Assembly (NCBI GenBank): GCA_002698945.1
Contig: NZZV01000173.1
Span: forward strand, 1-48,446
Reading direction: 5' to 3'
From: Acidimicrobiaceae bacterium
GTDB lineage: Bacteria; Actinomycetota; Acidimicrobiia; Acidimicrobiales; Ilumatobacteraceae
DNA: 48,446 bases
A model generated the notes under the pieces. That model was not told the DNA's origin. It ran no database searches and worked only from the letters and a program-made list of their open reading frames with translations. The stretch's first letter is position 1; every line of letters begins with the position of its first letter. The translations under genes and the position numbers were made by a program. Positions 16,955 through 26,670 of this stretch are shown piece by piece.

Positions 16955-17590
16955 TCACCCTTGACGGTCGTCGAGCAACAGCCGCAGGTCGCGTTCGATG
17001 TCGTCACTGGTCATGTCGGCGGTCCACGTCACGATCACGTCGCCGTTGTCGTCGACGAGGTAGGTCTGGTCGGTATGGCCGACGTCGGTCGTGTCCCCTT
17101 CGTGGTCTTGTTCGGTGCCGTAGGTGGCACCGAACGCAGTCGCGAGTTGGCGAAGCATGGCCGCGTCGTCAGTGCGGAGGCCGATGCCACGGTCGATGAA
17201 ACCTTGGACGAAGTTGGTGAGCGCCTCGGGGGTGTCACGGTTCGGGTCGACGGTGATCATCGCGACGTCGATCGGGTCCGCGTCGCTACCGATCCGGTCG
17301 ATCGCTTGGCCGACTTCGGCGAGAGCGGTCGGGCACACGTCGGGGCAGTTCGTGAATCCGAGGAACACGATCAGCAGGCCGCCAGGCGCGGCGCGCACCG
17401 TGAACGGTTCGCCGGTAGCCGTGTTGTCGACCGTGAACGTCCCCACGTGCGGGACCGGGTCCACCTGGTATCCGACCAGCGATTCGTCGCCACCACCGCA
17501 CGCGGCGACGATGATGATGACGGCCATCGCGGACAGGACGTCGCGCAGGCGACGGGTGCGATCGGTGATTCGAGCGAAAGTCGTAGGCAT
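16955..17590 (-). CDS. SCO1/SenC copper chaperone lipoprotein
   Basis: The product has 211 residues from ATG 17590. A GTG at 17614, overlapping the upstream stop as GTGA, is also possible. The lipobox IIVAAC is at about residue 30. The copper site FTNCPDVCPTAL supplies two Cys, and GHTDQTYLVDD the His. SCO proteins deliver copper to the CuA centre of cytochrome oxidase or act as thiol reductases. Unlike the other SCO1 here (24502), this one is a lipoprotein and follows a cation exporter, so a resistance role is possible. Confidence 0.9.
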   Translation of the reverse strand: MPTTFARITDRTRRLRDVLSAMAVIIIVAACGGGDESLVGYQVDPVPHVGTFTVDNTATGEPFTVRAAPGGLLIVFLGFTNCPDVCPTALAEVGQAIDRIGSDADPIDVAMITVDPNRDTPEALTNFVQGFIDRGIGLRTDDAAMLRQLATAFGATYGTEQDHEGDTTDVGHTDQTYLVDDNGDVIVTWTADMTSDDIERDLRLLLDDRQG

Positions 17591-17610
17591 GGTCCGAGAC
17601 GTTGGGTTGA

Positions 17611-18537
17611 TCACCAGGCGACGTCGTGACAGCCATCGTGGGTCTCGGGTTCGACCTGGAATGTGGCGTGGGCGATGTGGTAGCGGTCGTCGAGCAGGTG
17701 TCGTGCTTGGTCGAGTACCCCGTGGAACTCGACGCCGCCGCGGACCATCAAGTGCGCCGAGGCGGCGTCCATTTCCGACGTGAGAGTCCACACGTGAAGA
17801 TCGTGCACGTCGACGACCCCATCGATCGCGCCGAGATCGCCGGCGAGGGCGTCGAGATCGACATGATCGGGAGCGGCCTGGAGCAGGATCCGCACGGCCC
17901 GCGAGCCGAGCCGCCAGGTTCGCGGCAGGATCCACACCCCGATCGCCGCGCCGATGACCGGGTCCACCCACGACCAGCCGAACACTTCGAGCAGGATCGC
18001 GGCAACGATCACGCCGACCGATCCGATCGTGTCGGCCAGCACCTCGAGATAGGCACCCTCAACATTGAGGGACTCCTTCGAGCCTTCGCGCAGCAGCGCG
18101 AACGCGACCAGGTTGGCGACGAGCCCCAAGATCGCGACGACGAGCATCGGCACACCGAGCACCTCGGGTTCACCGGTGAGCCGCCGGGCAGCCTCGATCA
18201 GCACCCAGATCGCGACGCCGAACAGCAACAACGCGTTCACGAACGCGGCGAGGATCTCGAGCCGGTACAGCCCGAACGTGTGCCGGGATCGGGATCCGTT
18301 CTGGCGTTGCTCGAATCGCGACGCGAGCTGGATCGCTGCGAGCGCCATCCCGATGCCGATCACGTCGGTGAGCATGTGGCCGGCATCGGACAACAGGGCG
18401 AGCGAGTTCGTGACGAACCCAGCGATCGCCTCCACAACGAAGAACGTGAAGATGATCGCAAATGCGATCAGCAAGCGGCCGCGGTGTCGCTCACCGGCTC
18501 GGGCCAGGCCGGCGCCGTGGTCGTGGTCGCCGCCCAT
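17611..18537 (-). CDS. Cation diffusion facilitator exporter (CzcD/ZitB type)
   Basis: The 308-residue protein has a His-rich start (MGGDHDHG) and six membrane helices. Zinc-site motifs are LSDAGHMLTD in helix 2 (HxxxD) and LEVLADTIGS in helix 5, where Leu-Ala-Asp keeps the Asp. The last 90 residues form the cytoplasmic CDF domain, ending in HATFQVEPETHDGCH. It is a proton antiporter for Zn and often Cd or Co. Its ATG shares one base with the stop of the ArsR gene upstream (TGATG). Confidence 0.93.
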   Translation of the reverse strand: MGGDHDHGAGLARAGERHRGRLLIAFAIIFTFFVVEAIAGFVTNSLALLSDAGHMLTDVIGIGMALAAIQLASRFEQRQNGSRSRHTFGLYRLEILAAFVNALLLFGVAIWVLIEAARRLTGEPEVLGVPMLVVAILGLVANLVAFALLREGSKESLNVEGAYLEVLADTIGSVGVIVAAILLEVFGWSWVDPVIGAAIGVWILPRTWRLGSRAVRILLQAAPDHVDLDALAGDLGAIDGVVDVHDLHVWTLTSEMDAASAHLMVRGGVEFHGVLDQARHLLDDRYHIAHATFQVEPETHDGCHDVAW

Positions 18538-18923
18538 CAGCGGTCGTCCCCGGCGTGGGCGAGATGGTCGCGTGACACGTCGAGCAGCATGCGAATGTGG
18601 CTGTCATCGAGCCGGTAGAAGACGTTGCGTCCGTCGCGACGGTTGCGCACGACCCCCGCCGCGCGCAGCAGGCGCATCGCCTGGGACACCTTGGTCTCGT
18701 TCGTGTCCACCACCGCAGCGATGTCACACACGCACAACTCCCCGGCTTCCAAGAGCGCGTACAGAATGCGCACCCGGGTCGGGTCGCCGAGCAGCCGGAA
18801 CATCTCCGCGAGATGCACGGCCTCTTCGAGGCCAACCACGCGTTCCGAAGTCGCCGCGACCCGACCCGGATCGACCCCAGGTACGACGCACCGATCCAAC
18901 GCGGTCACTCTCGACGACTGCAT
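18537..18923 (-). CDS. ArsR-family Zn/Cd sensor with both α3N and α5 sites
   Basis: The 128-residue repressor carries two complete-looking metal sites. ELCVCD with C64 and C66, plus C12 in the N-terminal arm, matches the CadC α3N site for Cd/Pb. D107, H109, H120 and H123 give DxH-x10-HxxH, the α5 site of SmtB/CzrA for Zn. The winged helix lies between (about 45-100). It controls the coupled CDF exporter. This is a different subtype from the two CmtR-like regulators in the window. Confidence 0.9.
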   Translation of the reverse strand: MQSSRVTALDRCVVPGVDPGRVAATSERVVGLEEAVHLAEMFRLLGDPTRVRILYALLEAGELCVCDIAAVVDTNETKVSQAMRLLRAAGVVRNRRDGRNVFYRLDDSHIRMLLDVSRDHLAHAGDDR

Positions 18924-18946: not shown

Positions 18947-19012
18947 GTCATGCTGCCACCGGGAAGCACCGATGCTGCGCGAATCGGCTAACTACACCCA
19001 CCTCGATGCGTG

Positions 19013-19160
19013 GGAGGCACCAGCCGAAGCGAGCGAGCTGGCGAGGTGATCGGGTACGTGGGTCAGAGCGGGAACGCCGTCGGCGGCCACCTCCACTTCG
19101 AGACGCGAGCGGACAGGTTGTCGAGAATCCGTACCCGTTGGTTGAGGAAGCGTGCGGATC
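19013..19160 (+). pseudogene. Decayed C-terminal end of an M23 peptidase
   Basis: One frame reads GEVIGYVGQSGNAVGGHLHF-ETRA, the LytM active-site end with HLHFE. Homology then moves to another frame as SGQVVENPYPLVEEACGS, which matches the layout of the last residues of the intact M23 protein at 22671 (VNPYPYARGAC). A frameshift near 19110 separates the two. No N-terminal part or start is left. The remaining bases to 19398 hold nothing else I can support. Confidence 0.6.
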
Positions 19161-19398
19161 GCCGACAACTTCTCGATCGGCGCCGCTCACCGGCCGGCCA
19201 CTGCTCCGCTGAACGTTCCGAGCCCGGCGACTTCAGTCAACGGTGGGGCCCGTCAGCACATCTGTGCCGTTGATCGCTCTGGGCGCGTCGCCGCTCAGGG
19301 TGGTGGCTGTGCTCACTGCGGCGTGGGGAACGTCGTCGGACCCTCGACTGCCCTCCCTGTGGCTAGGCGACGGGTGGCGTGCCGTCGCCGCTGATGGC

Positions 19399-19938
19399 TC
19401 AGTACGAGAACGGCTGCAGCGCAGCGTCGTTTCGAACCGCAAGAACCGTCTGCAAGGCCCACGTGGTCTCGTCGCCGCCCATGCCGGGAGAGTCGCCCGG
19501 CATACCGGGTACGGCGAGGCCGACCACGACGGGGCGGTCGGCGAGCAAGCGTTCGATGGCCTGGATCGGAACGTGCCCCTCGAGAACGTAGCCGTCGACG
19601 ATGGCGGTGTGGCACGACGCCGCCTCGTCGGGAATGCCGAGTTCGATACGACGTCGCCGTCGCTCGGGGTCGTCCTCAAGATTTACGGCGATGCCGCGGT
19701 CTGCCAGGTACCCGACCCAGCTCGTGCAGCACCCTCAACCAGGATCGCGCCACACGTCGACCCGGACGCCGTCGAGCACGGTGGACGCAGTGTCACCGGA
19801 CGATCGGCCGGCCGACGGCCGATCCGACCCACCTGCGCAGGCCGTCAGCGCCAGCCCGGTCAGCGCCACGAATCCGTGGACGAGCAGCGAACGCCGGGTC
19901 AACTCCTCAACGTGTACTCGAATCTGCCGGTTGGGCAC
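19399..19938 (-). CDS. DUF411 metal-binding protein with in-frame UGA at the first Cys
   Basis: From GTG 19938, the frame gives a twin-Arg/lipoprotein signal (LTRRSLLVHGFVALTGLALT then AC) and VDVWRDPG. A TGA follows (19735-19737), then GCCTSWVGYLADRG with no further stop until 19399. DUF411 proteins read SPSCGCC-x2-W here, so the TGA stands exactly at the first Cys of C-G-C-C. The rest is canonical: LGIPDEAASCHTAIVDGYVLEGHVP and AVPGMPGDSPGM. Either the codon is read as selenocysteine, or a single-base nonsense change (TGC to TGA) has broken a periplasmic copper or mercury-binding protein, or the base is a sequencing error. Counting the UGA as a residue, the length is 179. Confidence 0.75.
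19703..19721 (-). promoter_or_regulatory. Possible bacterial SECIS hairpin after the DUF411 UGA
   Basis: Read on the minus strand, bases 17 to 35 counted from the U of UGA can form a 7-pair stem (two G-U pairs) with loop CGGGU. Bacterial SECIS elements sit 11 to 16 bases after UGA and expose G/U in the loop. The fit is suggestive only, since GC-rich DNA folds easily. Confidence 0.3.
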
Positions 19939-20122
19939 GACCCCGAGTGTACGAGCCGTGTCGGAATGCTGACGCCGACGTGTCGCGCCTGCCGGTCGGT
20001 GAAGGCCGCCTGCCGAGCAACCCTGATCCCCGCCGCCTCTCAGACGCCCGACCGAGACGGCTGGAAATCCCCCTAGTGTGACGAGGAGGTCTGAAGCCCT
20101 CGACGACTCGGAGCCACGCAAG

Positions 20123-20839
20123 ATGACCAGCAACACGATGACGGCGACAGGCGAGCAGACCTCCGACAGAGACGCCAGTGACCAATCCGATGCAGGGTCG
20201 ACGACCCGGGACCTGTCGGATGCGACGTTCGAGCGGCTGCTCCGGTTCGTACTCTTCGGCCTCTCGGCGGTAGTGATCGTCAGCTTGCTCGCGGCTGGAG
20301 CAGTGTGGGTGCTGGCGGACGACACGGCTCCGCAACCGATGAACGCTGTCGACGTCGGGTTCCTTCGCGACATGCTCGATCACCACGAGCAGGCGCTCTT
20401 GATCTCAGAGATCTACCTCGACGAGCGACCCGACAGCGGCGTCGCTCCGTACGCTCGCGAGGTGGTCCTCTACCAGCAACGCGACATCGACTGGATGGAA
20501 GCGTGGCTCGCCGAAGAGGGGTATCCGCGTGGTGCGCCCGACCGGATGGCGATGGAGTGGATGGGCATGGCCGTGCCGGTTGCCGACATGGCAGGCATGC
20601 AGACCGAGGAGCTGCTCCAGCGCCTCGACAACGCGACGGGCGAAGACGCCGACCTGTTGTTCCTCACGATGATGAGCGACCACCATCGCGGTGGCATCCA
20701 CATGGCGGACTACGCCGCCGCGAACGGCGCCAACGAGGAGATCACAGACTTCGCGGCCGGCGTCGCCCGGAACCAGAGCATCGAGATCAGCGAATACGTC
20801 CTGGCCGCAAAGCGTCTCGGTCTCATTCCCGAACGCTGA
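20123..20839 (+). CDS. DUF305 (CopM-like) membrane-anchored protein
   Basis: This is a 238-residue protein from ATG 20123, which has GGAG nine bases upstream; GTG 20078 is also open. One membrane helix lies at about 45-66. The exported domain shows the two DUF305 His motifs, FLRDMLDHHEQAL and FLTMMSDHHRGGIHMADYA, and a Met-rich middle (DRMAMEWMGMAVP, DMAGM). Members such as CopM bind copper or silver outside the cell. It is divergent from the DUF411 gene, another predicted soft-metal binder, so the 185 bases between may be a shared control region. Confidence 0.9.
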   Translation: MTSNTMTATGEQTSDRDASDQSDAGSTTRDLSDATFERLLRFVLFGLSAVVIVSLLAAGAVWVLADDTAPQPMNAVDVGFLRDMLDHHEQALLISEIYLDERPDSGVAPYAREVVLYQQRDIDWMEAWLAEEGYPRGAPDRMAMEWMGMAVPVADMAGMQTEELLQRLDNATGEDADLLFLTMMSDHHRGGIHMADYAAANGANEEITDFAAGVARNQSIEISEYVLAAKRLGLIPER

Positions 20840-22670: not shown

Positions 22671-23903
22671 TCAGCATGCTCCGCGAGCGTATGGGTACGG
22701 GTTGACCGCGAGGCCGCCACCGGGGTGGACCTGGAGATGGAGGTGGTTCACGGTCGTGTTGCCAGTCTTGCCGACGTAGCCGATCACTTCGCCGCGCGTC
22801 ACCGGACGACTCGAGCCTTCCCACGCGCTCAGGTGGGCGTAGTAGTAGCGCGTTCCGCTCGCGCCCTGCAACGACACGGTGTTGCCACCGAGCCCGTTCG
22901 TTCGGAAGCTCGCTGTCCCTGCTTCCATGGCCACCAACGGAGTGCCGCCGGCGGCGATCATGTCGACCCCCTCGTGGCTGCGCCCCCCTGAGCGCGCAGC
23001 ACCCCACGTGTCGGAGAAACCGACCGCACCCGCAACCGGACAAGCTAACCCGGCAGACACCACCGGCGCGGACGGCGAGCCAGGTCCCGGGCCCCCGGAA
23101 CCGTTCGCTGCGCCGCTACCACCACCGCTGTTCGCTTCACGCTCGGCCTGCTCGCGAGCCTCGCGCTCGGCCTGTTCTCGCGCCTCGCGTTCGGCCTGTT
23201 CGCGAGCGCGCTGTTCGGCTCGCTGACGTTCGAGCGCGTGCTGCACCTCGGCGTCGCGGACACGTTCAGCCTCGACTTGTTGGAGCCGCACGATCTCCGC
23301 TTCGGCGTCGGACCGGAGCCGCTCGAAGTCGTCGCGGGCAGCAACCTCGTCGGCACGACGCTGCTCCAGCTCGGCTCTCGCGTCGTCGAGCTCGTCGATG
23401 CGTTCATCGAACTCATCGACATCGACAACCATCCCGCCCGTGGCGACACTCGTCAAGACGGCCGCCGCCGCGTCGGCATTCGCGTCACTGATCGATCCCA
23501 GCAACGGATTCGCCGACACACCCCCTGCGGTGTAGCGACGCACCGCCATCTCACTCAGACTGCCCCGCATCGCCACGACCTCCGCTTCGAGTTCACCGAC
23601 GCGCCGCGTCGCATCGGTGATCTCGGCGTCGAGCGTCTCCAACCGCAACTCGGCATCGAACAGAGCCTGCGCCGCTGCATCTGCACGATCGCGGGCCTCT
23701 TGAATCTCGCGAGCCGCCTGCTGAGCAGCCGGGCCGTCGTGGTCGGCGTGCGCCACGTCGTGCGCCGCCAACACTGCCGCGAGCGCGACAAGCGCAGCAA
23801 TCCACCGGAGGCGACGTGGTCGGGGCACGAGCGGCAACGTTACAGAACGATGACGAAAATCGGACGGCAGCGTGGCGGACGCGGACTCGTCGAACGCCGT
23901 CAC
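22671..23903 (-). CDS. Coiled-coil M23 peptidoglycan hydrolase (EnvC-like layout)
   Basis: The product is about 410 residues from GTG 23903. The frame is open to 24161 with an ATG at 23984, so the start is uncertain. A signal helix (WIAALVALAAVLAAHDVAHA) is followed by some 190 residues of coiled coil, ending in 8-residue repeats of the type EREAREQA, then a Gly/Ser linker. The LytM domain has GRSHEGVDMIAAGG, YYYAHL and NHLHLQVHP, and ends NPYPYARGAC. It probably cleaves or activates cleavage of cell-wall cross-links. The pseudogene at 19013 is a damaged relative. Confidence 0.88.
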   Translation of the reverse strand: MTAFDESASATLPSDFRHRSVTLPLVPRPRRLRWIAALVALAAVLAAHDVAHADHDGPAAQQAAREIQEARDRADAAAQALFDAELRLETLDAEITDATRRVGELEAEVVAMRGSLSEMAVRRYTAGGVSANPLLGSISDANADAAAAVLTSVATGGMVVDVDEFDERIDELDDARAELEQRRADEVAARDDFERLRSDAEAEIVRLQQVEAERVRDAEVQHALERQRAEQRAREQAEREAREQAEREAREQAEREANSGGGSGAANGSGGPGPGSPSAPVVSAGLACPVAGAVGFSDTWGAARSGGRSHEGVDMIAAGGTPLVAMEAGTASFRTNGLGGNTVSLQGASGTRYYYAHLSAWEGSSRPVTRGEVIGYVGKTGNTTVNHLHLQVHPGGGLAVNPYPYARGAC

Positions 23904-24043
23904 TGCACTCTCACGATCGCGGACCGGGCGCACCGAGCGTTTCGGCGCACGTATCGAGATACCAACGGAACTTTGGGCCGTCATCCAGCGACTTGTAGGG
24001 GGCGTGCCGTGTTGCCGGCCCGCAACGACGAGCAACCATTTTC

Positions 24044-24505
24044 GTGAGCACTCGACCCGCAAGATCGACCACCGTGACCGACCCACATGCCGCGCCCGGC
24101 TCCGCGGCGGCTGCGGGACTGGCAGGCCCGACGCTGGTCGTCTCGTGGGCCGTTGGCGCAACGCTGGTGCTGCTCAGCTGCGGCGGGTCGGCGCCGCGGG
24201 ACCTGGACGGCGCTGCCGCACGAGGAGCGACATTGACCCGCGAGCTGGGTTGTGCGGCGTGTCACGGTGGTGCCGACCAAGACGCCGAGATCGGCCCGTC
24301 ATGGGTCGGGTCGTGGAACGACGAGATCGTGATGTCCGACGGCGAGAGGGTCCGCTTCGACGCGTCGTACGTTGTTTCGTCGGTACGTCAGCCGGATCTG
24401 CAACGCCGAGGCGGTGACTGGCGTCGCATGCCGGCTTACGACATTGATCAGCTGACCGACGACGAGTTGAACGACATCGTCGACTACCTGGAAGCGCTCG
24501 GATGA
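24044..24505 (+). CDS. Membrane-bound c-type cytochrome
   Basis: The 153-residue protein begins at GTG 24044 (GTG 24074 is also open). The N-terminal hydrophobic stretch ends in a lipobox-like LVLLSCGG. The single haem site is CAACH (ELGCAACHGG), and RRMPAYD gives the likely Met axial ligand, as in class I cytochromes. The end (LTDDELNDIVDYLEALG) is the typical last helix. It is the first gene of a four-gene oxidase-assembly operon and overlaps SCO1 by ATGA. Confidence 0.9.
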   Translation: MSTRPARSTTVTDPHAAPGSAAAAGLAGPTLVVSWAVGATLVLLSCGGSAPRDLDGAAARGATLTRELGCAACHGGADQDAEIGPSWVGSWNDEIVMSDGERVRFDASYVVSSVRQPDLQRRGGDWRRMPAYDIDQLTDDELNDIVDYLEALG

Positions 24506-25194
24506 CCGAGACCGACACGCACACCGATGGTGCAGCGCCGGTCACCTCGACGCCACCCGGCCCGGCCGAGGTCGAGTCGCCGCGCCGACAGGTGATCGCG
24601 ATCGCCATCGTCGCCTTCATCGTGCTCGGCGTCGGGTTGGTCGTCGGCTACACCCGCGCGTCGTCGCAATCCTCGGCGGCGTGGGTCGAACTCGCACAAC
24701 CGGTTGAGATGCCCGACGTCGTGTTGACCGACACCGACGGCCAACCCTACGACCTACGGGACCGGACCTCCGGTCGGGTGACACTGCTGTACTTCGGATA
24801 CCTCAACTGCCCTGATGCGTGTCCGATCCACATGGCGGTGCTCGGTGCGACATTCGACCAACTCGACCCAGACGTGCGCGCACAACTCGACGTCGTGTTC
24901 GTTACCACCGATCCCGATCGCGACGGCCCCGACGAGCTTCGCGAGTTCCTCGATCGGTTCGACCCCGACTTCGTCGGCCTCACCGGGTCCCAGACCGAGC
25001 TCCGCGACGCACAAATCGCCGCCGGTGTACCCGTCGCAGTGGCCGATCCGCCCGACACGAACGGGGACTACCTCGTCGGCCACGCCACCCAGGTGCTCGT
25101 GTTCGACACCGACAGTGTCGCTCGCCGCGTCTACCCCTTCGGCGTCCGCCAGTCAGACTGGGTCGCAGATCTCTCCGACTTGGTGGACACGTGA
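24502..25194 (+). CDS. SCO1/SenC-family copper chaperone
   Basis: The 230-residue protein has one membrane helix (about 32-52) and an exported thioredoxin fold. The copper ligands are CPDAC in YLNCPDACPIHM and His in VGHATQVLVFD. It delivers copper to cytochrome oxidase CuA together with PCuAC, the next gene, which it overlaps by GTGA. This is the better candidate of the two SCO proteins for a true oxidase-assembly role because of its operon. Confidence 0.93.
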   Translation: MTETDTHTDGAAPVTSTPPGPAEVESPRRQVIAIAIVAFIVLGVGLVVGYTRASSQSSAAWVELAQPVEMPDVVLTDTDGQPYDLRDRTSGRVTLLYFGYLNCPDACPIHMAVLGATFDQLDPDVRAQLDVVFVTTDPDRDGPDELREFLDRFDPDFVGLTGSQTELRDAQIAAGVPVAVADPPDTNGDYLVGHATQVLVFDTDSVARRVYPFGVRQSDWVADLSDLVDT

Positions 25195-25646
25195 AGCCCG
25201 CTCGCCGCCTCACGCTCATCGCAGCAGGAGCGGTCTTGGCGGGCTGCGCGCAAACAGCCAACGCACCAAGCACCTTGACCGTCGACCGCGCCCGTGTCGG
25301 CGCCACACCCGCCGGCGCCGACGCCGCGGCGTACTTCGACATCCGTGCCGGTGGCGACGACCGGCTGACCGGAGCCGTCACCGACGCCGCCGCGCGTGCC
25401 TCGCTCCACGAGATGCGCGATGCGGACGGCGGCGGCATCATGACGCAAGTCGACGCGGTGGACCTGCCCGCCGGCATCGAGGTGAGATTCGAGCCGTTCG
25501 GCGATCACGTCATGCTGGAAGACCTCGAACGTGACCTGCGGCCCGGTGACAATGTCACGATCACACTGTCGTTCGCCGACCACGCGTCGATCGACGTCGA
25601 AGCGACCGTGGTCGCCCTCGTCGATCTCGCCGAGGAGAACCGATGA
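25191..25646 (+). CDS. PCu(A)C copper chaperone lipoprotein
   Basis: The product has 151 residues from GTG 25191. The lipobox is VLAGC at about residue 20. The Cu(I) site is conserved: LHEMRD, then GIMTQVD, then FGDHVMLEDL, giving the H-x-M, M and H-x-M layout. PCuAC hands Cu(I) to SCO or straight to the CuA subunit. It overlaps the gene before (GTGA) and a 20-codon ORF after (ATGA). Confidence 0.92.
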   Translation: MKPARRLTLIAAGAVLAGCAQTANAPSTLTVDRARVGATPAGADAAAYFDIRAGGDDRLTGAVTDAAARASLHEMRDADGGGIMTQVDAVDLPAGIEVRFEPFGDHVMLEDLERDLRPGDNVTITLSFADHASIDVEATVVALVDLAEENR

Positions 25647-25705
25647 GCCCCACCCCCGAAGCAGCCAGCACCGGCATCCGACGACTCCGAGGCCTGTGTC
25701 GATGA
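25643..25705 (+). CDS. 20-codon ORF relaying translation from PCuAC to CtaG
   Basis: This short frame (MSPTPEAASTGIRRLRGLCR) starts in an ATGA shared with the PCuAC stop and ends in an ATGA shared with the CtaG start. It may carry ribosomes across a 55-base gap rather than make a useful peptide. It could instead be the remnant of a longer CtaG start. Confidence 0.4.
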   Translation: MSPTPEAASTGIRRLRGLCR

Positions 25706-26670
25706 GGTGGTGGTGTTCCCAACTGTACGAGCCCTGGTCGTGGACTCCGCGGCCGTACCTGGGCGTCTGGGTCATCATCGCCGTAGTGGTGATCGTCCGC
25801 GCTCGCACGCTGCGTCGTCGACGTCACGAGACGGAATCGAACGCTGTGACGTCGCACCAACGGGTTGCGTTCTGGTTCGGACTCTTCGGCTTCTGGCTGG
25901 CCTCGGATTGGCCGATCGGCACGCTCGGAGCCGGCTACCTGGCGTCGCTCCACATGACCCAATACATGCTGTACACGTTCATGGCCGCTCCCTTGCTACT
26001 GCTCTCGGCCCCGGAATGGTGGGTCCGCCGGCTCCTCGCTCGCAGCCGCAACTATCAACTCATCAGCTGGGTGGCACGGCCCGTCCACGCGGCGGTCATC
26101 GCCAACGCCATCCTGATCGCCACCCACGCACCGTGGACCGTCGACAACCTCCGCGTCACGCAGGTCGGATCCTTCCTCCTCGACGTGGTCTGGCTCGTCG
26201 GCGGGTTCGTCGTGTGGTACCCGGTGATCGCCCCACTCCCCGAGCATCGAGTCGCATCCCCGCCGCTGCGCTGCGCCTACCTCTTCGTCGCCGCCGGCAT
26301 CTCCTCGCTGATCCCGGCCGGCTTCCTGACGTTCGCCAACAACCCGCTGTACCGCAGCTACGAGATCGCCCCTCGGCTCGGCCTCGACCCCCTCGATGAC
26401 CAGCAACTCGCCGGCGCTATCATGAAAGTCGGCGCATTGCCGGTCATCTGGATCACGATGGCCGTCATCTGGATTCGCTGGGCAACTGCAGAGCGAAACG
26501 ACCCCGGCGCCTACCGCCAGCAGCACCAACCCGCCGGCGAGTCGAACCGACCCGATTGCTGGCAAGCACCAATCACCCTGGAGACAAAATGCAGCGAGAC
26601 CAACCACCCCCCTCCTTGTGCCGGCACGGGCCGGCCAACACCCCAGTCGCTCCCAACCCCGCTCATCTGA
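25702..26670 (+). CDS. CtaG-type cytochrome c oxidase assembly protein
   Basis: The product has 322 residues from ATG 25702. About seven membrane helices belong to the caa3_CtaG family: WFGLFGFWLASDWPIGTL, LHMTQYMLYTFMAAPLLLL, PVHAAVIANAILIATH, and the conserved DDQQLAGAIMKVGALPVIW near the C-terminal helix. These proteins insert copper into haem-copper oxidase. The last 50 residues are hydrophilic and read through low-similarity sequence, so the natural end may have shifted. It completes the cytochrome-SCO1-PCuAC-CtaG set. Confidence 0.88.
   Translation: MRWWCSQLYEPWSWTPRPYLGVWVIIAVVVIVRARTLRRRRHETESNAVTSHQRVAFWFGLFGFWLASDWPIGTLGAGYLASLHMTQYMLYTFMAAPLLLLSAPEWWVRRLLARSRNYQLISWVARPVHAAVIANAILIATHAPWTVDNLRVTQVGSFLLDVVWLVGGFVVWYPVIAPLPEHRVASPPLRCAYLFVAAGISSLIPAGFLTFANNPLYRSYEIAPRLGLDPLDDQQLAGAIMKVGALPVIWITMAVIWIRWATAERNDPGAYRQQHQPAGESNRPDCWQAPITLETKCSETNHPPPCAGTGRPTPQSLPTPLI

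Follow-up and report, generated by a model that had tools for sequence, protein, structure and literature searches.

The DUF411 gene on the minus strand of the window (the whole stretch of 48,446 nucleotides analysed here) very probably encodes a selenoprotein form of CopG, a form predicted in nearly all of the full-length copies that we found in the class Acidimicrobiia. As the preliminary description had it, the frame reads VDVWRDPG, an in-frame TGA and GCCTSWVGYL, with 111 sense codons between this TGA and the terminal one, and the in-frame TGA sits at the first cysteine of a C-G-C-C site (codon 68; Table 1). The gene product was assigned to DUF411 by Pfam (PF04214, 87.5 bits against a cut-off of 27), and no NCBIfam family scored above its cut-offs for these DUF411 proteins. 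The UGA would, with high likelihood, be decoded as selenocysteine (Sec) by SelB and tRNA-Sec, with a hairpin 20 nt downstream as the guide. Four lines of evidence support this reading, i.e. the conservation of the TGA, the Sec machinery of the genome, frozen synonymous codons at the spacing of a bacterial SECIS element, and selection acting downstream of the UGA; the preliminary description had offered a selenoprotein as one of two options, and it is this option that the data favour. The insertion of Sec itself we infer from the same sequence data.

Table 1. Position of the predicted selenocysteine codon, the associated sequence elements and the neighbouring genes in the window.
Feature	Position	Strand	Remarks
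Predicted Sec-containing DUF411/CopG-like gene	19399..19938	-	GTG start at 19938, terminal TGA 19401-19399; 179 codons with the UGA read as Sec68
In-frame TGA, predicted Sec codon	19735..19737	-	Residue 68, first position of U-G-C-C
Cys70-Cys71 of the U-G-C-C site	19726..19731	-	
Met146-x6-Met153	19480..19503	-	Spacing as in the CutG Met pair M120-x6-M127
Predicted signal peptide	19837..19938	-	Ends in lipobox-like LTAC (Cys34), with TRRSLL ahead of LTAC; Cys34 nearly invariant in the alignment
bSECIS-like hairpin GCUGGGU-CGGGU-ACCUGGC	19703..19721	-	7 pairs; loop CGGGU (19714-19710)
DUF305 protein	20078..20839	+	
SCO1	24502-25194	+	Copper/cytochrome-oxidase assembly group (24502..26670), 4.5-7 kb away
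PCu(A)C	25188-25646	+	Copper/cytochrome-oxidase assembly group
CtaG	25531-26670	+	Copper/cytochrome-oxidase assembly group
SCO1, nearby second	16955-17857	-	
Cation-efflux CDF pump	17611-18537	-	
ArsR regulator	18537-18923	-	

A sequence search of the PDB returned CopG of Pseudomonas aeruginosa (6WIS and 6WJE, entitled copper resistance protein CopG; E 9.8e-28) as the sole match below E 0.1, the next match lying at 0.13. In a fold search with a structure model of the window protein (mean pLDDT 84.5), nothing but CopG matched below E 0.001; the model aligned with 6WJE at a TM-score of 0.83 by CopG length and 0.60 by model length (35% identity). This homologue is described as holding a tetranuclear copper cluster by means of a CxCC motif and two methionines, with a proposed role in copper oxidation or transfer (PMC7558416). 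CutG of Rhodobacter capsulatus, a CopG homologue of the cutFOG operon, also has C-x-C-C and M-x6-M and shares its operon with a multicopper oxidase, the activity of which is reported to drop to about half without CutG (PMC8456105). Both copper-ligand motifs are present in the window protein, with Sec as the first Cys (U68-G-C70-C71 and M146-x6-M153), and position 68 (Sec or Cys), Cys70, Cys71, Cys109, Met146 and Met153 were invariant in an alignment of 41 rows in which U was written as C. Since DUF411 is the family of CopG and the model matches CopG, Sec would replace a predicted copper ligand. Two differences stand beside this likeness: CopG and CutG are Cys forms whereas the window gene has a UGA at the first position, and CopG is reported as a periplasmic protein of Gram-negative bacteria whereas the window protein looks like an actinobacterial lipoprotein. 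The proposal in the preliminary description that Sec serves as a metal ligand thus fits the ligands reported for CopG; we still infer that role for Sec68 from homology, and rate its probability a little above even.

The genes around the window copy include two SCO1 genes and genes for PCu(A)C, CtaG, a DUF305 protein and a CDF pump, all within ~7 kb. An M23 peptidase fragment (19010-19273, plus strand; profile positions 64-90 of 96, below the cut-off) looks like a remnant, and a full M23 gene is located at 22671-24161 in the window. Close to the second DUF411 copy of the same genome (contig C212) we found a P-type ATPase carrying both HMA and CPC. In two other copies (L035 and L037) a multicopper oxidase gene immediately precedes the DUF411 gene on its own strand, CutG too being next to such an oxidase; the opposite strand downstream encodes a MerR regulator and has a frame with a HAD domain, in all probability the terminal part of a P-type ATPase. 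CopC-CopD lie near L036 and a CPC-type ATPase near L043. Within the reach of our neighbour scans (selected ORFs in ~1.5 kb on each side of the other copies), copper genes stood beside 6 of the 14 scanned copies of the window's own family (family total 15); further neighbours were an ATPase without a CPC match (L034), a DUF305 gene (L039) and a COX1 gene (L048). Copper-resistance genes were beside none of the 15 scanned copies of other families, the Cys copy among them, and four of these copies (L055, L063, L065 and L068) adjoin genes for cytochrome c or its assembly.

The best surviving alternative is a variant within the selenoprotein reading, in which Sec68 would be a redox catalyst working by selenol/thiol exchange on a thioredoxin-like fold (reducing, for example, a disulfide or a metal complex) and no lasting copper ligand. 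A thioredoxin-like domain is indeed described for CopG (PMC7558416), thioredoxins and glutaredoxins were numerous among the weaker fold matches, the CxCC of CutG is reported to be dispensable for multicopper oxidase activity (PMC8456105), and a 2026 review of prokaryotic selenoproteins expresses the view that most uncharacterised selenoproteins are redox proteins (PMC13188914). Against a purely catalytic role stand the invariance of Cys70, Cys71, Met146 and Met153, which are the reported kinds of copper ligand, and the copper genes that adjoin several copies, and we regard this role as possible but somewhat doubtful. With Sec68 as a copper ligand, a lipoprotein outside the membrane would bind copper(I) via one selenolate, the remaining thiolates and Met146/Met153, and would shuttle or oxidise copper together with the multicopper oxidase, the copper ATPase and the oxidase-assembly systems; for these two steps taken jointly our confidence slightly exceeds an even balance.

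The window protein is probably exported as a lipoprotein, its LTAC presumably being a lipobox. The VWRDPG-type copies (the window copy, L034 and L050) carry TRRSLL, SRRALL or SRRALM ahead of the lipobox, motifs that resemble Tat signals and would in that case mean export after folding. The UGA follows soon after the signal peptide and a linker, and might act mainly as a selenium switch, giving a 67-residue lipopeptide without selenium and the full protein with it. However, the N-terminal part of the DUF411 copies is poorly conserved in the alignment apart from Cys34, and no separate function is visible for the short product, so that we consider such a switch improbable.

The preliminary description had proposed a search of the host genome for selA, selB, selC and selD, the absence of which would have spoken against Sec, and all four were found above their cut-offs in the window genome. 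The tRNA-Sec scored 66.6 bits (gathering score 47) and was assigned the anticodon TCA by ARAGORN, selA is the direct neighbour of selB on contig C151 (SelA, 413 bits against a cut-off of 267.9; SelB, 249.2 bits against 242.25, with the SelB winged-helix domain present), and selD, in its Cys form, scored 323.6 bits (cut-off 125). The genome also encodes a homologue of formate dehydrogenase alpha (Fdh-alpha; G000 C90:8920-10788, L087; 644.5 bits, just under the cut-off of 666.25) whose frame is interrupted by a TGA at RT-U-HAPS. DUF411 would thus not be the sole gene here for which UGA is apparently recoded. Here, too, a hairpin follows the TGA (GUGGUC-GGUCU-GGCCAC, 6 bp, 5-nt loop) at a distance similar to that of the DUF411 hairpin, although the enzyme is a different one and the loop is GGUCU instead of CGGGU.

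SelA exceeded its cut-off in 256 of the 395 genomes sampled from the class, where the use of selenocysteine looks common; the open-access papers listed on selenoproteins or selenocysteine in this group gave nothing on this point. Genomes with a TGA copy contained SelA (E 3e-110 or better) in 21 of 23 cases vs 235 of 372 for the others (Fisher p 0.006, to be taken as a guide only because the genomes are related). SelA was not found in G504 and was weakly detected in G530, both of which are incomplete MAGs with a TGA copy.

The SECIS rule given in PMC13188914 asks for a small apical loop, located 16-37 nt after the UGA, whose first or second base is G. The seven-pair hairpin with loop CGGGU that the preliminary description had placed at SECIS spacing is present and fits this rule, its loop starting 20 nt after the UGA, and it belongs to the minimum-free-energy fold predicted for 52 nt starting at the UGA, although the whole fold was no stabler than shuffles (z -0.41). 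The hairpin region showed no excess of stability over synonymous recodings either (mean z -0.05 for the 36 Sec copies and -0.2 for 39 Cys stretches), stability of this kind being a supporting and not a defining feature of bacterial selenoproteins. Across the class, 33 of the 36 TGA copies are able to form all six core pairs, with G and then G/U at loop positions 2-3, but the core pairs belong to the predicted best fold (52 nt) of only 15 of the 36, that of the genome's second copy not being among them, and the outermost (seventh) pair forms in 9 of the 36. One clade of four copies shows a pair changed on both sides (G-C to C-G or U-G). The count of pairs changed in this way did not exceed that of shuffles (218 of 500), while the covariation score and the percentage paired exceeded all 500 shuffles. 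The RNAalifold consensus was weak (-3.81 kcal/mol, of which the covariation term was -0.25), and no Rfam family matched within the window at gathering scores. Much of the hairpin pairing follows from the conservation of the residues W-V-x-Y-L-Q. In the three divergent copies that break core pairs (G543, G552 and G334), other hairpins fold at the same place with loops that depart from the G rule, one of them with ten pairs and a z of -3.84.

In the hairpin, the Val codon was GTC in 33 of 33 cases vs 43% elsewhere and the Gly codon GGG in 20 of 20 vs 20% elsewhere. When 106 codons were ranked by synonymous conservation, +7, +8, +9 and +5, all in the hairpin, took ranks 1-4, and among 107 four-codon windows each of the top five overlapped the hairpin. 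This synonymous freezing is the strongest sign of RNA-level selection at the hairpin that the alignment offers, and we keep the assignment as a putative SECIS element on the basis of position, loop and frozen codons, and not of stability.

The genome of the window is a draft of 4.36 Mb in 226 contigs (82% complete), and its second DUF411 gene, 55% identical at the protein level, reads VRRDPG-TGA-GCCSAW with the TGA at the same codon; one recent mutation cannot account for both paralogues. Two MAGs of Ilumatobacter, a genus of Actinomycetota in the class Acidimicrobiia, carry TGA (L030 and L031), and a member of the Magnetococcales (L032) carries TGC. The family sample (221 genomes) gave 14 matched genomes, 13 of which contained 15 real copies with exactly one TGA each, the weak match in G140 being left out, and 27 genomes matched in the class sample (395 genomes). 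Taking the family and class searches together, the motif codon of the full-length class copies was TGA in 36 of 37 and TGT in one (G364), so the recurrence of UGA at this column, which the preliminary description had suggested looking for among DUF411 homologues, was found throughout nearly the whole set. In this count L034 is the L030 gene and L036 the L031 gene, each entered once. Outside the 37 are three fragments that end short of the motif (L129, G311 C19; L130, G555 C196; L131, G506 C80) and a decayed copy (L128, G445 C97), which has TGA at the motif, a deletion of the hairpin stretch and a frameshift; weak matches (L046, L049, L072, L073 and one in G478; E 5e-5 to 6e-4) were taken as chance.

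Beyond the class the codon changes. The phylum sample (396 genomes) yielded 10 matched genomes, the window genome among them, and the 6 other copies that reach the motif have Cys codons (L080 falls short of the motif, and the matches to L082 and L083 were weak). In the sample of the phylum of L032 (398 genomes), 191 genomes matched, that of L032 included; for the 30 loci whose codon was read among the matches listed it was TGC in 17 and TGT in 13, and none of the further rows among the matches listed had an internal stop. Hence every copy with the motif whose codon was read outside the class is a Cys form; these number 37, with 6 from the phylum, L032 itself and 30 from the phylum of L032. Stops located elsewhere, away from the motif, occur in L110 and L116 (Pseudomonadota); L110 (G1114 C110) has the Cys motif, a TAA before it and an in-frame TGA ~30 codons further on, and is either broken or misassembled.

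A frame that stays open after the UGA throughout the class would also be expected if the UGA were read through as Trp or Gly, by a changed code or a leaky stop. Such recoding is rejected, and we hold it to be highly improbable, because the aligned residue outside the class is Cys, neither Trp nor Gly, and TGA also terminates the window gene and several of its relatives; in addition, tRNA-Sec and SelB are present. A fresh nonsense mutation, a sequencing or assembly error in a Cys gene or a pseudogene, as the single base between TGC and TGA, the draft state of the genome and the existence of decayed copies might suggest, is ruled out for the window gene by the 36 distinct TGA copies (no pair of which is >95% identical from the UGA on) and by a dN well below dS downstream of the UGA. 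The preliminary description had kept a TGC to TGA nonsense mutation as its plain alternative, and had named TGC in all close relatives, together with an error in the reads, as evidence against Sec; the TGA recurs in the paralogue and in another 34 copies of the class, which refutes this alternative.

Downstream of the UGA, dN was lower than dS in all 11 chosen pairs (dN 0.02-0.17; dS 0.13-1.26), a pattern by which purifying selection is seen to act on this part of the gene. A tree with 44 rows placed all 36 TGA copies together with the lone TGT copy in one supported group (95/96), and two label changes suffice, which we read as one gain of Sec and one return to Cys; the direction of the Sec/Cys change is tentative, since the tree was rooted at its midpoint. 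Two old paralogue types, VWRDPG and VRRDPG, co-occur in the window genome and in G108. The lone TGT copy, a Cys form (L057 in G364), has kept UGGGUCGGGUACCUG and lost the pair at the base of the hairpin; SelA is still present in its genome, and the copy seems to have gone back from Sec to Cys.

DUF411, CopG and PF04214 are absent from Table 1 of the 2026 review, which by the review's own count comprises 119 families or subfamilies (PMC13188914), and the portions of other selenoproteome papers that were consulted contain nothing on DUF411/CopG. The open-access papers listed gave no report of DUF411 or COG3019 in connection with selenium, of a selenoprotein in Ilumatobacter or of a selenoprotein form of CopG. 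The same table does list metal-handling selenoproteins, i.e. a CopZ-family protein (2Fe-2S), the SO_0444 Cu/Zn efflux transporter, MerT and an E1-E2 ATPase, which likewise have a predicted Sec and act in metal transport or resistance but belong to other domain families, none of them DUF411/CopG (PMC13188914). The novelty that the preliminary description had seen in a selenolate ligand is therefore narrower than supposed, Sec in metal handling being already on record, and what is new with respect to the 2026 table is the CopG/DUF411 family.

It is about an even call whether the window protein represents a natural copper-selenolate cluster, in which Sec68 would bridge copper in a tetranuclear cluster of the CopG type, gained once at the base of the Acidimicrobiia branch, kept in nearly all copies found and serving a selenium-dependent copper defence or delivery at the cell surface. 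A reading by the standard code ends the window frame at VWRDPG and splits the gene, so that the copper-handling gene would probably be missed or called broken in these genomes. CopG/DUF411 is a candidate addition to the prokaryotic selenoprotein families, one with a solved Cys relative for comparison, and selenium at a ligand site of a known copper cluster would make the role of selenocysteine for copper testable in one small protein.
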